Shown: piece after piece, positions 7,830-58,635 of the stretch
How the letters are laid out: each line of letters begins with the position of its first letter
How positions within the stretch are numbered: position 1 is the stretch's first letter
DNA from: Bacillus sp. FJAT-18017
GTDB taxonomy: Bacteria; Bacillota; Bacilli; Bacillales; Cytobacillaceae
DNA: 64,000 bases
Direction of reading: 5' to 3'
Assembly (NCBI RefSeq): GCF_001278805.1
Contig: NZ_CP012602.1
Span: 2,820,001 to 2,884,000, forward strand
The notes under the pieces: generated by a model
The model's input: only the letters and a program-made list of their open reading frames with translations
Told to the model about the DNA's origin: nothing
Database searches by the model: none
Program-made: the position numbers and the translations under genes

Positions 7830-9173
7830 CTATACGGGCACTGGTACCCCAGCCATAAACCCTAAATCCGACAGTATCCTGATTCCGTACTGTTTTAGAT
7901 TTCTGGCCGCATTATAGTCTCGATCCATTTTTGTGCGGCAATGCTCGCACACATACACTCTCTCTAAGAGTTTCACTGTTTCCTTTTTTGAATTGCATTC
8001 ACTGCATAGTTTTGTGGAAGGAAAGAATTTCTCTGCGAAGATAAGATGCTTTCCTTTTTTCTTCGCTTTATACTCCAACATGGTTCGGAACATGCCAAAC
8101 CCGTTGTCATGCAATTTCTTGCCCAGGGACAGGCATTGTGCCAAATTGCTCAAATCCAGGTCTTCCACCAAAATAGCCGCATAGTCATTGGTTATCTGAT
8201 TGCTTCTTTTGTTGAGAAAATCTTTTCGCTGGTTTTTTGCCTTGGCCATGGTTTTTTGATAGTTCTTAAGCGTGTTTTGATAAGTAGTTGAGTAAAGAAT
8301 CCTGCCCTCAGAATCGACCAGGGCTCTATTCCTTTTCCTGGCCAATGACTTGTTCAACCGTCTCTGGCGCTTTTCAATGATCTTATGGTACCTTGGATAC
8401 CCGGCTTTGCGACCCTCGCTATCCATGTATAAATCAATCTGGCTATAATCTAGCGCCAGCACTTCATTAGCCCTGATGTTACTCCGCAAAGGCTCTTGTT
8501 TCATTGGAAAATCCACAGACAGCGATACCATATAGCGATCTCCTTCCCGTTTAATGGTCGCCTTCTTGATAATCGCTTCTTTAGGTAACTCACGATGCAT
8601 GGCAATCGGGATTCCATTTCGAAACTTCGGGATACATAGCAGGGATTGGTCGTTACGTTGGACGATATTAATATTTCCATTCGTTTGATTGGTGGTGTAG
8701 CTGAACTTTCCGTGCTTCTTGCTGTGGAATTTGGGGAAGCCTTTCATGTCTCGCAGAGTCGGAACATACCCAGTCGTTCGCATCTTTTTTCGGACCGCTT
8801 TTTTGTACTGCATCGGTTTTTTTGCGAATTCATCATTATATTTCTTCACCGCAGCCTGAAAACGGATTTTCGCATCATTGTAAACAAACGAATCGTTGGA
8901 TTTATCGAGATAGTCATATTTCTGAGTGATGGTGGTGTAGTTAGGCGTCGTGTATTGAATGAATCCGCCTTGAAACCCGATTTTCTCCAAATGTTCGTAG
9001 AGTCCAGCTACATACTCGTTGTATACCTTCCGTTCGCATCCGAAAGAGCGTTCTATCACTTTCCTATCATCCTCAGCCGGGAAAATTGCGTAACGATACC
9101 CATACGTAACCCAACCTTCAGGTAGCACTTTTTTTGTACCTTTTATATAGTTTCCATTCTTGTCGGTAGCCAT
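7830..9173 (-). CDS. tnpB: TnpB-type RNA-guided nuclease (orphan, large variant)
   Basis: 447 residues, longer than the usual 370-400 of IS200/IS605 TnpB. The RuvC-like acidic triad is present: Asp in EVLALDYSQIDLYMD, Glu in AILVEDLDLS, and Asp in KMDRDYNAARNL. The zinc-ribbon cysteines CSEC and CEHC lie between the last two. No tnpA lies nearby, so it cannot transpose by itself. Known TnpB proteins cut DNA guided by an RNA from the element's right end. ATG at 9173 follows GGGAGGTG by 6-7 nt; an extension to 9194 has no ribosome site. The DYSQ context of the first Asp differs from the common D-L-G-x-K form. Confidence 0.88.
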   Translation of the reverse strand: MATDKNGNYIKGTKKVLPEGWVTYGYRYAIFPAEDDRKVIERSFGCERKVYNEYVAGLYEHLEKIGFQGGFIQYTTPNYTTITQKYDYLDKSNDSFVYNDAKIRFQAAVKKYNDEFAKKPMQYKKAVRKKMRTTGYVPTLRDMKGFPKFHSKKHGKFSYTTNQTNGNINIVQRNDQSLLCIPKFRNGIPIAMHRELPKEAIIKKATIKREGDRYMVSLSVDFPMKQEPLRSNIRANEVLALDYSQIDLYMDSEGRKAGYPRYHKIIEKRQRRLNKSLARKRNRALVDSEGRILYSTTYQNTLKNYQKTMAKAKNQRKDFLNKRSNQITNDYAAILVEDLDLSNLAQCLSLGKKLHDNGFGMFRTMLEYKAKKKGKHLIFAEKFFPSTKLCSECNSKKETVKLLERVYVCEHCRTKMDRDYNAARNLKQYGIRILSDLGFMAGVPVPV

Positions 9174-9310
9174 CTTTTCACCTCCCTTGTCCATGTTTGA
9201 GCGAAACTACTATATAAGAATATTTTACCAAACGGAACGTATGTTTGTCTTGTGTTAGAATATATATTTTTAACCGTTTTCATTTCTATGCCCAAACAGA
9301 AAACACACGC

Positions 9311-44370: not shown

Positions 44371-44970
44371 TTATATTTTTCCGATATTCATTGGATCTCG
44401 ATCAATTCCTGCATTTCCTGGCATCCAGTTTGCTGGGACTCCCTTACCTGTTTGCCTTGCGAATTGTAATGCATAAATGAGCCTGAGAATTTCATAAGAA
44501 TTGCGGCCAACTTCAGAAGGATTGATAAACCTTCCGACTATTTTCCCTTCCGAATCAATAATAATTGTTGCCCGATAGGCAGCTCCAGTTTTTTCATTTA
44601 GTACTTGGTACGCTTTACTAATCGAATGTGTCCTGTCACTGACAAGCGGGTAGGTCACTTTTGAAAGTGAAGGTGAAGTTTCGGCAAACACTTTATGCGA
44701 ATACACACTGTCCGTACTGATTGCCAGAACATCGGTATTAAGCGTCTTAAGCTCGGAATAAATGGCAGCGACCGCTGCCAGCTCGGTTGGTCAGACAAAT
44801 GTGAAGTCGCTTGGGTAGAAAAACAAAATCACCCAGCTTCCGCGATAGTTGTCCAAGCTTATCTGTTTTATTGTCTTTTCCAGGGTATCATAAGCATCTG
44901 CTTTGAACGTCGGTGCCTGGGTGGATAATTGTGCCTTTAAAGGCTGTTCCTGATTGTTTGAAAATTGCAT
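44371..44970 (-). CDS. Selenocysteine-containing peroxiredoxin (AhpC/Prx1 type, resolving Cys absent)
   Basis: 199 codons from ATG 44970 (ribosome site GAGGTG) to TAA, interrupted only by TGA at 44791-44793 (residue 60). The context WVILFFYPSDFTFV-U-PTEL is the AhpC active site, in which U takes the place of the peroxidatic cysteine. DVLAISTDSVYSHKVF and the Arg in TGAAYRATIII match the family. At the C-terminus the usual V-C-P-A-N-W is GVPANWMPGN, so the resolving cysteine is missing; the enzyme would be a 1-Sec peroxidase needing an outside thiol. A perfect hairpin follows the TGA. It should reduce hydrogen peroxide and organic peroxides in the cytoplasm. Confidence 0.9.
44764..44779 (-). 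promoter_or_regulatory. bSECIS hairpin of the AhpC-type gene
   Basis: Perfect stem GGCAGC/GCTGCC with loop GGTC. The loop starts 18 nt after the TGA, closely matching the spacing and the GGU-containing loop of the E. coli fdhF element. Confidence 0.82.
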
Positions 44971-45054
44971 TTCCACACCTCGCCTATACTCTATTCGGAG
45001 TATAGTATGTCAGCGGAATTGGGTTGTTGAGCCTAATTATCTGTAAATAAAAAA

Positions 45055-47523: not shown

Positions 47524-47635
47524 ATTCACTTTATGTCATAAAGACGTTTAAAGAATTCAGTATTTTATTACTTTTTATTGATAGGTTGTTTAATAGATAA
47601 TCCTCTGTTAAAATTCTAAAATCAACTTCATACAA

Positions 47636-47706
47636 TCCTTATATATTTTTGGAAATATGGTCCAAAAGTCTCTACCTGGCATCCGTAAAGTGCCGGACTA
47701 TAAGGA
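47636..47706 (+). ncRNA. Guanine-class purine riboswitch
   Basis: Complete purine aptamer. P1 CCTTATA/TATAAGG; P2 TTTGGA/TCCAAA with loop AATATGG; core TCTACC; P3 with loop TCCGTAAAG; and J3/1 GACTAT, where the C at the selectivity position (74) predicts guanine or hypoxanthine rather than adenine. It precedes a terminator and the nucleoside transporter gene, so bound guanine should switch transcription off. Confidence 0.93.
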
Positions 47707-47739
47707 AAGTTAGATCGCCGCAAGGGACAAATGTAGCCT

Positions 47740-49126: not shown

Positions 49127-50275
49127 TTAGGCTATCCCTGTCGTCCCGACAGTTAGGAGACGAACGGCTTCGTTCCGGAGATTTCTTCCTGCGTTAATAT
49201 CCCTGTCATGTTCCATGCCACATCCCGGACACACCCACTTGCGAAGGTTGAGATTCTTAACGTCTTTGTGTTTGTGGCCGCAATTCGAGCAGAGTTGGCT
49301 AGAGGCAAAGGTCTTTGAAACCGCCACAATTTTCTTTCCATACCATTTTGCCTTATACTCCAGCATGGTCCGGAATTGAGACCAGGATACTTCACTGATG
49401 GATTTGGCAAGATGGGGGTTTTTCAGAAGATTGGTTACCTGCAAATCCTCAATACCGACGACATCGTGGTTTTTGATGATTTCGGTAGAGATTTTCTGTA
49501 GGTAGTCTGTCCTCGCATTCACGATTTGTTCATGTAGCCTCGCGACTTCCCGTTTCTGTTTTTGGTAGTTCTTCGCTTCATTCAAAGGTTTCTTGTTCTT
49601 TATAGCCTGTTCCCGCCTTCGGGATAGGATGCGTTGTGCTTTCATTAATTTCTTTTCCTTGGTCCGGAAGAATTTCGGATTTTTGTATGAGGTGCCATCG
49701 GAGAGTATGGCAAAATCCTTTAATCCCAAATCGACTCCAACCACTGAACCCGTTTTTACCTTAGGCCGGACTTCCTGTTCAGCCAGGATTGAAATAAAGT
49801 ACTTACCCGAGGGGCTGCGGCGGATCGTGGCGTTTAATATTCTGCCTTCAATTTCCCTGCTTTTGGCAAATGTGACAAGCCCAAGCTTTGGCAGTTTCAG
49901 CTTATTGCCCACTATAGCGATATTCCCGTTTGTGTGCTTGGAGGTATAGGATTGGACTATGTTTTTCTTTGATTTAAACCGCGGGGCTTTTGTCTGTTTT
50001 TTAAAAAACCTTTCGAACGAATCGGAAAGATGCCTGAGGGATGTTTGCACGGCCGTACTGTCCACTTCTGTTAACCAGGGGTATTCCTTTTTCAGGGCAG
50101 GAAGCTGGGAGGAACACTTGTTGTAGGACAGACCTTTACCCTCTTCCTTATAGGAAGTAGTCCATTTTTCAAGGAAGAGATTAAAGACGAACCGGGCGCA
50201 CCCAATTGTCTTTTTTATCAGTACTTCCTGTATTTGATTCGGATAGATTCGAAATTTATACGCTTTTTTGATCAC
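49127..50275 (-). CDS. tnpB: TnpB-type RNA-guided nuclease (IS200/IS605 family)
   Basis: 382 residues, standard TnpB length. N-terminal [20 protein letters not shown]; RuvC Asp in [16 protein letters not shown]; Glu in [13 protein letters not shown]; zinc ribbon CSNC...CPGC; last Asp in [12 protein letters not shown]. All catalytic positions are intact. No tnpA accompanies it. GTG at 50275 lies 7 nt after GGGG and is preferred to the unsupported 50302 start. A TATAAT box is at about 50317-50322 on the minus strand. Confidence 0.92.
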
Positions 50276-50408
50276 ACAAACACCCCTTCTGAATCGGAAC
50301 ATTTGTTCTAATTATACCACAGAAAGGAAAACTTTGCCTAACGCCAACCGGCATTCGTCTCCCCCATATTGTTGGGCTTTGCCCTGCACACAATTGAGGT
50401 GTAGCTAA

Positions 50409-51922: not shown

Positions 51923-52390
51923 TTACTGGCACTTACCGAGTTCTTCGAATACAGCTTCATAGTCCTCTTTCTTGTCTGCATTAAATGATGTATTCGTATA
52001 GGTAATTGCTCCCTGTTTATCAACAACAAATACTGATCGCTTAGCAACCTGGCCATGGTCATTAAAAACATTGTAATCCTTTGTAGTCGCTTTAAACCAG
52101 TCGGATAACAGTGGATATGGCAGTGTTCCAAGACTTGCTTCAAACACACGATGAGAATGGATGTGGTCGACGCTAATCGCAAGCACTTCTGCATCAAGTT
52201 CTTCAAAACGTTTGTATTCCTCTTTCCAAGAGGTCAGTTCTTTCAGTCAGCCCGGTGTGAAATCCATGCCATAAAAAGCGACAACCACATTCTTCCTCCC
52301 CTGGTAGTCCGATAAAGATACCTTTTCTGCTGTTGTGGCGGAAAGGGAAAAATCAGGTGCCTGGTCCCCTACTTGCAACGAAGTTTCCAA
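51923..52390 (-). CDS. Selenocysteine-containing peroxiredoxin (PrxQ/BCP type)
   Basis: 155 codons from TTG at 52390 (GGAGGT 7 nt upstream), broken only by TGA at 52247-52249 (residue 48). VGDQAPDFSLSATT opens a thioredoxin-fold peroxidase; VVVAFYGMDFTPG-U-LKEL is the PrxQ active-site string with U in place of the peroxidatic Cys. EVLAISVDHIHSHRVF, PLLSDWFKATTKDYNVF and KRSVFVVDKQGAITY follow the family order. The only cysteine is residue 154 (GKCQ), so resolution probably uses this tail or an outside thiol. A SECIS-like hairpin follows the TGA. Without recoding, only the part after the TGA would be annotated. Confidence 0.9.
52219..52233 (-). promoter_or_regulatory. bSECIS hairpin of the PrxQ-type gene
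   Basis: Perfect stem CCTCTT/AAGAGG with loop GGA; the loop begins 20 nt after the TGA. Confidence 0.78.
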
Positions 52391-58493: not shown

Positions 58494-58518
58494 TAAAAAT
58501 AATTGTATATTAAAAATG

Positions 58519-58606
58519 TTTTCTAGGGTTCCGCAGCTTACTGTTGGTCTGGTCCGAGAGAAAACTCACAGCTTGCTGTGTCACGGAAGGATAAAAGCCT
58601 GGGAGA
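58519..58606 (+). ncRNA. Guanidine-I (ykkC) riboswitch
   Basis: Carries the class consensus blocks TTCTAGGGTTCCG, CTGGTCCGAGAGAAAAC, ACGGAAGGATAAAAGCC and GGGAGA in order. Guanidinium binding stabilises the aptamer and prevents the terminator at 58595-58635. The two SMR genes downstream are the classical targets. Confidence 0.95.
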
Positions 58607-58635
58607 AACTGTTTTTACAGTTTTTTCTCAGGCTT
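58595..58635 (+). terminator. Riboswitch-controlled terminator
   Basis: AAGCCTGGGAGAAACTGT pairs with ACAGTTTTTTCTCAGGCTT. Its 5' arm overlaps the last aptamer segment, giving a transcriptional ON switch. Confidence 0.88.

Follow-up and report, generated by a model that had tools for sequence, protein, structure and literature searches.

The locus considered here raises the question whether a TGA codon that lies exactly at the catalytic position of an otherwise intact peroxiredoxin gene is a stop or encodes selenocysteine (Sec), and how the encoded enzyme might then work. The gene occupies 44371..44970 on the minus strand of the window (i.e., the whole stretch of 64,000 nucleotides that was analysed), running from an ATG at 44970-44968 to a TAA at 44373-44371 and encoding an AhpC-type peroxiredoxin of 199 residues, hereafter Sec-AhpC. 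Across these 199 codons and the TAA (44970-44371) there is a single in-frame TGA (44791..44793, minus strand), which forms codon 60 and is read here as Sec within the motif DFTFV-U-PTEL. Alignment with Cys- and Sec-containing homologues placed this TGA at the peroxidatic Cys. Thus, an earlier note on this DNA was right in describing a 199-codon gene with one TGA at the catalytic Cys; its coordinates stand, and the strand that it left unstated is the minus strand. Several stops are present on the plus strand of the same interval. Five nucleotides upstream of the ATG, a GAGGTG hexamer was recognized by eye (44976..44981, minus strand), which we take to be ribosome-binding-like. Under translation table 11, the gene falls apart into open reading frames of 61 amino acids (44976-44791) and 111 amino acids (from 44706), i.e., the two fragments that the note had expected of standard annotation. 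The protein database entry for this genome's Sec-AhpC is a fragment of 130 amino acids (P0004).

Sec-AhpC scores 126.3 bits against PF00578 (gathering score 26) and retains the peroxiredoxin residues P53, T57, U60 and R133, corresponding to the PxxxTxx(C/U) motif, the P of which is variable within the Sec-AhpC clade, and to the active-site Arg. With U entered as C, it reached 162.6 bits against the NCBIfam equivalog model of AhpC (TIGR03137, cut-off 272) and 159.6 bits against that of PrxU (NF040737, cut-off 270); as both scores lie under their cut-offs, membership in either equivalog is ruled out. The fold, the active-site residues and the C-terminal PANW segment are shared with AhpC of the AhpC-AhpF system, a typical 2-Cys peroxiredoxin, from which the window protein differs by this score, by having Sec and not Cys as its peroxidatic residue and by the lack of a resolving Cys. 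With PrxU, it has in common the AhpC class and Sec at the peroxidatic site, and the C-terminal resolving Cys is likewise missing in all 30 PrxU loci read (from 48 genomes over the PrxU cut-off). However, all 30 carry a Cys ten residues before Sec that is absent from the window protein, which scores far under the PrxU cut-off and is placed on a separate branch of the tree.

PrxU, a Sec peroxiredoxin, was reportedly first described by Soehling in 2001 in Eubacterium acidaminophilum. That Sec-containing peroxiredoxins are established in bacteria, as the earlier note stated, is reflected in passages of PMC9312934, PMC13188914, PMC1794560 and PMC8533274, which mention them citing or following Soehling 2001. 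Sec-containing AhpC/PrxU peroxiredoxins are already known, and the Bacillaceae-type Sec-AhpC without resolving Cys is a variant thereof. In the open-licence papers searched, we found no report of a Bacillaceae Sec-AhpC and none of Sec peroxiredoxins that have given up their resolving Cys; PMC10778597, PMC12013277 and PMC10779653 contributed nothing further. A passage of PMC1794560 counts three selenoproteins in Bacillales. According to a passage of PMC5330540, Blastococcus saxobsidens also has Sec in an AhpC selenoprotein, but this actinobacterium employs UAG and a tRNA-Sec(CUA).

A search of the genome (one contig of 5,265,381 bases) for the Sec machinery had been named beforehand as the test of the Sec reading, with absence of selA, selB or selC as its refutation. 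This refutation fails, because tRNA-Sec, SelA, SelB and SelD were all found. A single tRNA-Sec match of 65.2 bits exceeded the Rfam cut-off, with the other 14 matches below it, and ARAGORN determined its anticodon to be TCA. SelA, SelB and SelD were matched with 572.9, 362.8 and 401.2 bits, respectively. Moreover, selD itself contains one in-frame TGA, as does a gene for Fdh-alpha that scored over cut-off.

Downstream of codon 60, we identified a SECIS hairpin (44763..44780, minus strand) with a stem of 6-7 bp and the loop GGUC. The 6-bp core of its stem (44779-44764, minus strand) starts 11 nt after the TGA, and the distance from UGA to loop is 17 nt. The bSECIS model, as given in a passage of PMC13188914, specifies a loop of 3-9 nt with G within the first two places, a stem of at least 4 bp, a distance of 16-37 nt from the UGA and an energy of -7.5 or lower. 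A hairpin of the correct shape and place is present in 67/67 Sec-AhpC loci (61 distinct sequences), and 64 of the 67 conform to the full model including energy, the other three narrowly exceeding its limit (-6.9 to -7.0 vs -7.5). None of the 43 Cys homologues that served as control set conforms to it. Positions 2-3 of the loop are GU in all 67 loci, the loop being GGUC in 62, AGUU in four and CGUG in one.

The hairpin also covaries. In an alignment of 61 sequences (59 distinct), pairing is kept in 99.7% of cells, double changes occur at three of the six pairs, and 0/500 shuffles reach the observed values, a result inflated by kinship among the sequences. Every slid version of the helix scores lower in covariation, and RNAalifold recovers the same helix unaided. 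In 33 sequences the key pair (columns 18-27) is formed by A-U, in 21 by G-C and in five by G-U, and mismatches do not occur. Furthermore, the two codons of the loop (GCG for Ala, GTC for Val), each found in 57/59 Sec-AhpC genes, are the least variable among 26 conserved four- to six-fold codons; these 59 are the distinct ones of 62 genes, mostly Bacillaceae-type, four of the 62 being Alicyclobacillaceae-type and Sporomusa loci. Folded singly, the window hairpin is only slightly better than shuffles (z -0.85; 34/200 shuffles as good). The sequence supports decoding of the UGA as Sec by SelB and tRNA-Sec(UCA), directed by this hairpin with its stem core 11 nt downstream.

The distribution of the gene points in the same direction. 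We searched 193 genomes of the family, for which the best matches were listed and the named relatives are mostly Bacillaceae. The 99 closest matches (E <= 1.1e-49), from 96 genomes, all carry the TGA, which is beyond chance, four of these 99 rows listing an extra TAA or TAG; among the weaker matches listed (2.6e-38 and worse), none has it. selA is present in 172/193 genomes, including all 96 carriers of Sec-AhpC, and none of the 21 selA-negative genomes carries the gene (Fisher 2.8e-7, which ignores relatedness; one of the 21 was assigned by elimination). Among the 120 of 576 database relatives that were listed, the site is missing in 101, nearly all starting after the TGA, is W in 16 and is Cys, accompanied by the resolving Cys, in three; no Cys orthologue of the Sec-AhpC clade was seen among these 120. 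The nearest named relative is Bacillus sp. EB01, with 98% identity. One database record (L041) is titled Chryseobacterium sp. ISL-80 and contains a Sec-AhpC resembling those of Mesobacillus records, so that its title may be wrong.

Against this background, it is hardly credible that the TGA is a true stop leaving a pseudogene or two separate fragments: the two open reading frames under table 11 and the mostly fragmentary relatives in databases would fit, but all 99 closest matches, from 96 genomes, share the TGA at this codon, and together with the frame conserved on both sides and the SECIS this contradicts it, in line with the earlier note's argument against a pseudogene. Similarly negligible is the chance that Sec is not involved and that readthrough inserts an ordinary amino acid (e.g., Trp) at the TGA, since homologues have the catalytic Cys at this site, a SECIS and the complete Sec machinery are present and none of the 21 selA-negative genomes has the gene; the W in 16 database relatives, which might suggest it, is best explained by gene callers using a code with TGA as Trp. 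Taken together, the machinery, the covarying hairpin and the TGA kept among relatives strongly support, at the level of sequence, that the TGA at codon 60 is a genuine Sec codon.

The window harbors a second Sec peroxiredoxin gene (51923..52390, minus strand), which encodes 155 residues from a TTG start and has one in-frame TGA at codon 48 (52247..52249, minus strand) within DFTPGULKEL. Its relatives carry the TGA in 51/51 matches from 50 of the 193 genomes (E 1e-38 or better). The conserved hairpin CCTCTTGGAAAGAGG after this TGA (52219..52233, minus strand) is a candidate SECIS. It is identical in 29/30 loci, of which two reach the bSECIS energy limit, so it would be a SECIS of another or weaker type. 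Cys is absent from the stretch read in 23/30 of these loci; in the window copy, a single Cys lies close to the C-terminus. Both Sec peroxiredoxin genes occur together in 23 of the 193 genomes; in seven of the 23, all belonging to the window's genus, they lie within 10 kb on one strand and in the same order, and these seven are among eight genomes of that genus. In near relatives, the two genes stand in tandem. The gap between the matches is 165-172 bases in G018, G021 and G022, 1.3-1.4 kb in G017 and G020, 7.0 kb in the window and 8.5 kb in G019. In the window, a TnpB-like gene and others separate the two. By eye, we noted two such TnpB-like genes of the IS200/IS605 type, at 7830-9194 and 49127-50302 (both minus strand), the latter being the one between the Sec peroxiredoxins. 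The second Sec peroxiredoxin is absent from the earlier note, as are the SECIS itself, the lost resolving Cys and the Cys-free nature of the protein.

We also inspected the surroundings of Sec-AhpC. Just upstream of the gene lies a perfect palindrome with 8-bp arms, CTATACTCcgaataGAGTATAG in minus-strand reading (44984-45005). It is nearly unchanged in the sister genome (window and sister being L027 and L107) and missing from all other upstream regions scanned, and was rejected as a shared upstream operator. The PerR box consensus showed no excess over shuffles in 68 Sec-AhpC upstream regions. In 11/31 loci, e.g., the Mesobacillus-type loci L037-L049, Sec-AhpC is followed by cydA- and cydB-like genes (by eye), some 1.3 and 2.5 kb, respectively, past its TGA. 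The window further contains, both over the Rfam cut-off, a purine riboswitch (47619-47720, plus strand) before a nucleoside-transporter-like gene (by eye) and a guanidine-I riboswitch (58512-58607, plus strand).

Elsewhere in the genome, AhpF (3791365-3792888) adjoins a canonical AhpC (3792934-3793482), and another Cys peroxiredoxin is also encoded. Sec-AhpC is an extra paralogue beside this ordinary AhpC-AhpF pair. With these peroxidases already at hand, and with linkage to the second Sec peroxiredoxin in 7/8 genomes of the genus, Sec-AhpC could be imagined to act mainly as a peroxide sensor or as a thiol oxidase in a relay and not as a scavenger. This role appears improbable, as the pair is linked in only 7/23 genomes having both genes and no conserved neighbor emerged, no family being common to more than 16/31 loci.

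Val178 occupies the position of the C-terminal resolving Cys of AhpC, so the hallmark of typical 2-Cys peroxiredoxins is missing, and the window protein contains no Cys at all. Among 138 distinct proteins, the resolving Cys is absent in 93/93 Sec proteins and present in 44/45 Cys proteins; it was counted as present when the C-terminal part contained C, then P or S, any two residues and W. A set of relatives (80 of 137 kept) was found with six query patterns, one of which, KGVPANWM, spans the site of the resolving Cys and thereby favors proteins without it. The single Cys protein without it is L103, from a Desulfobacca MAG; L099 and L103 bear another C-terminal Cys. On the tree, this Cys homologue groups with a Sec one (L103/L099), which may reflect a Sec-to-Cys change. 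A quick tree built from 91 of these 138 proteins requires two changes for Sec and one for the resolving Cys, and an independent-pairs test of the two characters comprised two pairs only and had no power. The association of Sec with a missing resolving Cys is therefore backed by just one or two evolutionary events.

Overall, it is very probable that the gene encodes an AhpC/Prx1-class peroxiredoxin with SECIS-directed Sec60 as peroxidatic residue and an outside thiol as its presumed reductant. The selenolate of Sec60 would attack H2O2 or an organic peroxide and be converted to the selenenic acid. Since the protein is Cys-free, a Se-S bridge of its own is impossible and an outside thiol would be needed. 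Bacillithiol with bacilliredoxin, or thioredoxin, may then form a mixed selenenylsulfide, and a second thiol would regenerate the selenol in the manner of Sec glutathione peroxidases. Bacillithiol is probably made by this organism, given a BshC match of 571.5 bits in the genome. The Sec glutathione peroxidases of animals resemble Sec-AhpC in combining a Cys-to-Sec change with resolving-Cys loss, but they represent another family, are animal enzymes and often use glutathione as reductant, as reported in a passage of PMC8614756.

The Cys-free state is not typical of the clade, because 49/56 distinct Sec-AhpCs of the Bacillaceae type possess an N-terminal Cys (44 of PFCA type by pattern); the seven that lack it include the window protein and its sister. 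This Cys might serve as resolving thiol. The clade as a whole could accordingly resolve the selenenic acid by a relocated N-terminal Cys in a two-thiol-like manner, and the window copy, having lost it, would be weakened or partner-dependent. The frequency of this Cys in the clade and its presence in 2/2 Alicyclobacillaceae-type Sec-AhpCs speak for such a route; its absence from the window protein, the sister and five others, and from 28/31 PrxU-like sequences, argues against it, and we regard it as rather unlikely. A bolder account of the enzyme's history, offered tentatively and with slightly less than even confidence, is that the gain of Sec at the AhpC-class peroxidatic site abolished the two-thiol mechanism, as in the glutathione peroxidases of animals. 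The C-terminal Cys would have been lost across the Sec clades, and the PFCA Cys would have appeared in the Bacillaceae/Alicyclobacillaceae clade and been dropped in the window's lineage. The result would be a Cys-free selenoperoxidase that depends on bacillithiol or another outside thiol, its gene lying near that of the second Sec peroxiredoxin, with which it is in tandem in near relatives.

Roughly one in two genomes sampled from the family (96/193) carries Sec-AhpC, which databases list mostly as fragments, and the peroxide defense of those 96 genomes is partly mis-annotated and selenium-dependent. A Cys-free copy beside Cys-bearing relatives provides a clean natural system for asking whether a peroxiredoxin that uses selenium can do without a resolving thiol, and the same system can show which thiol route, bacillithiol or thioredoxin, reduces Sec-AhpC.
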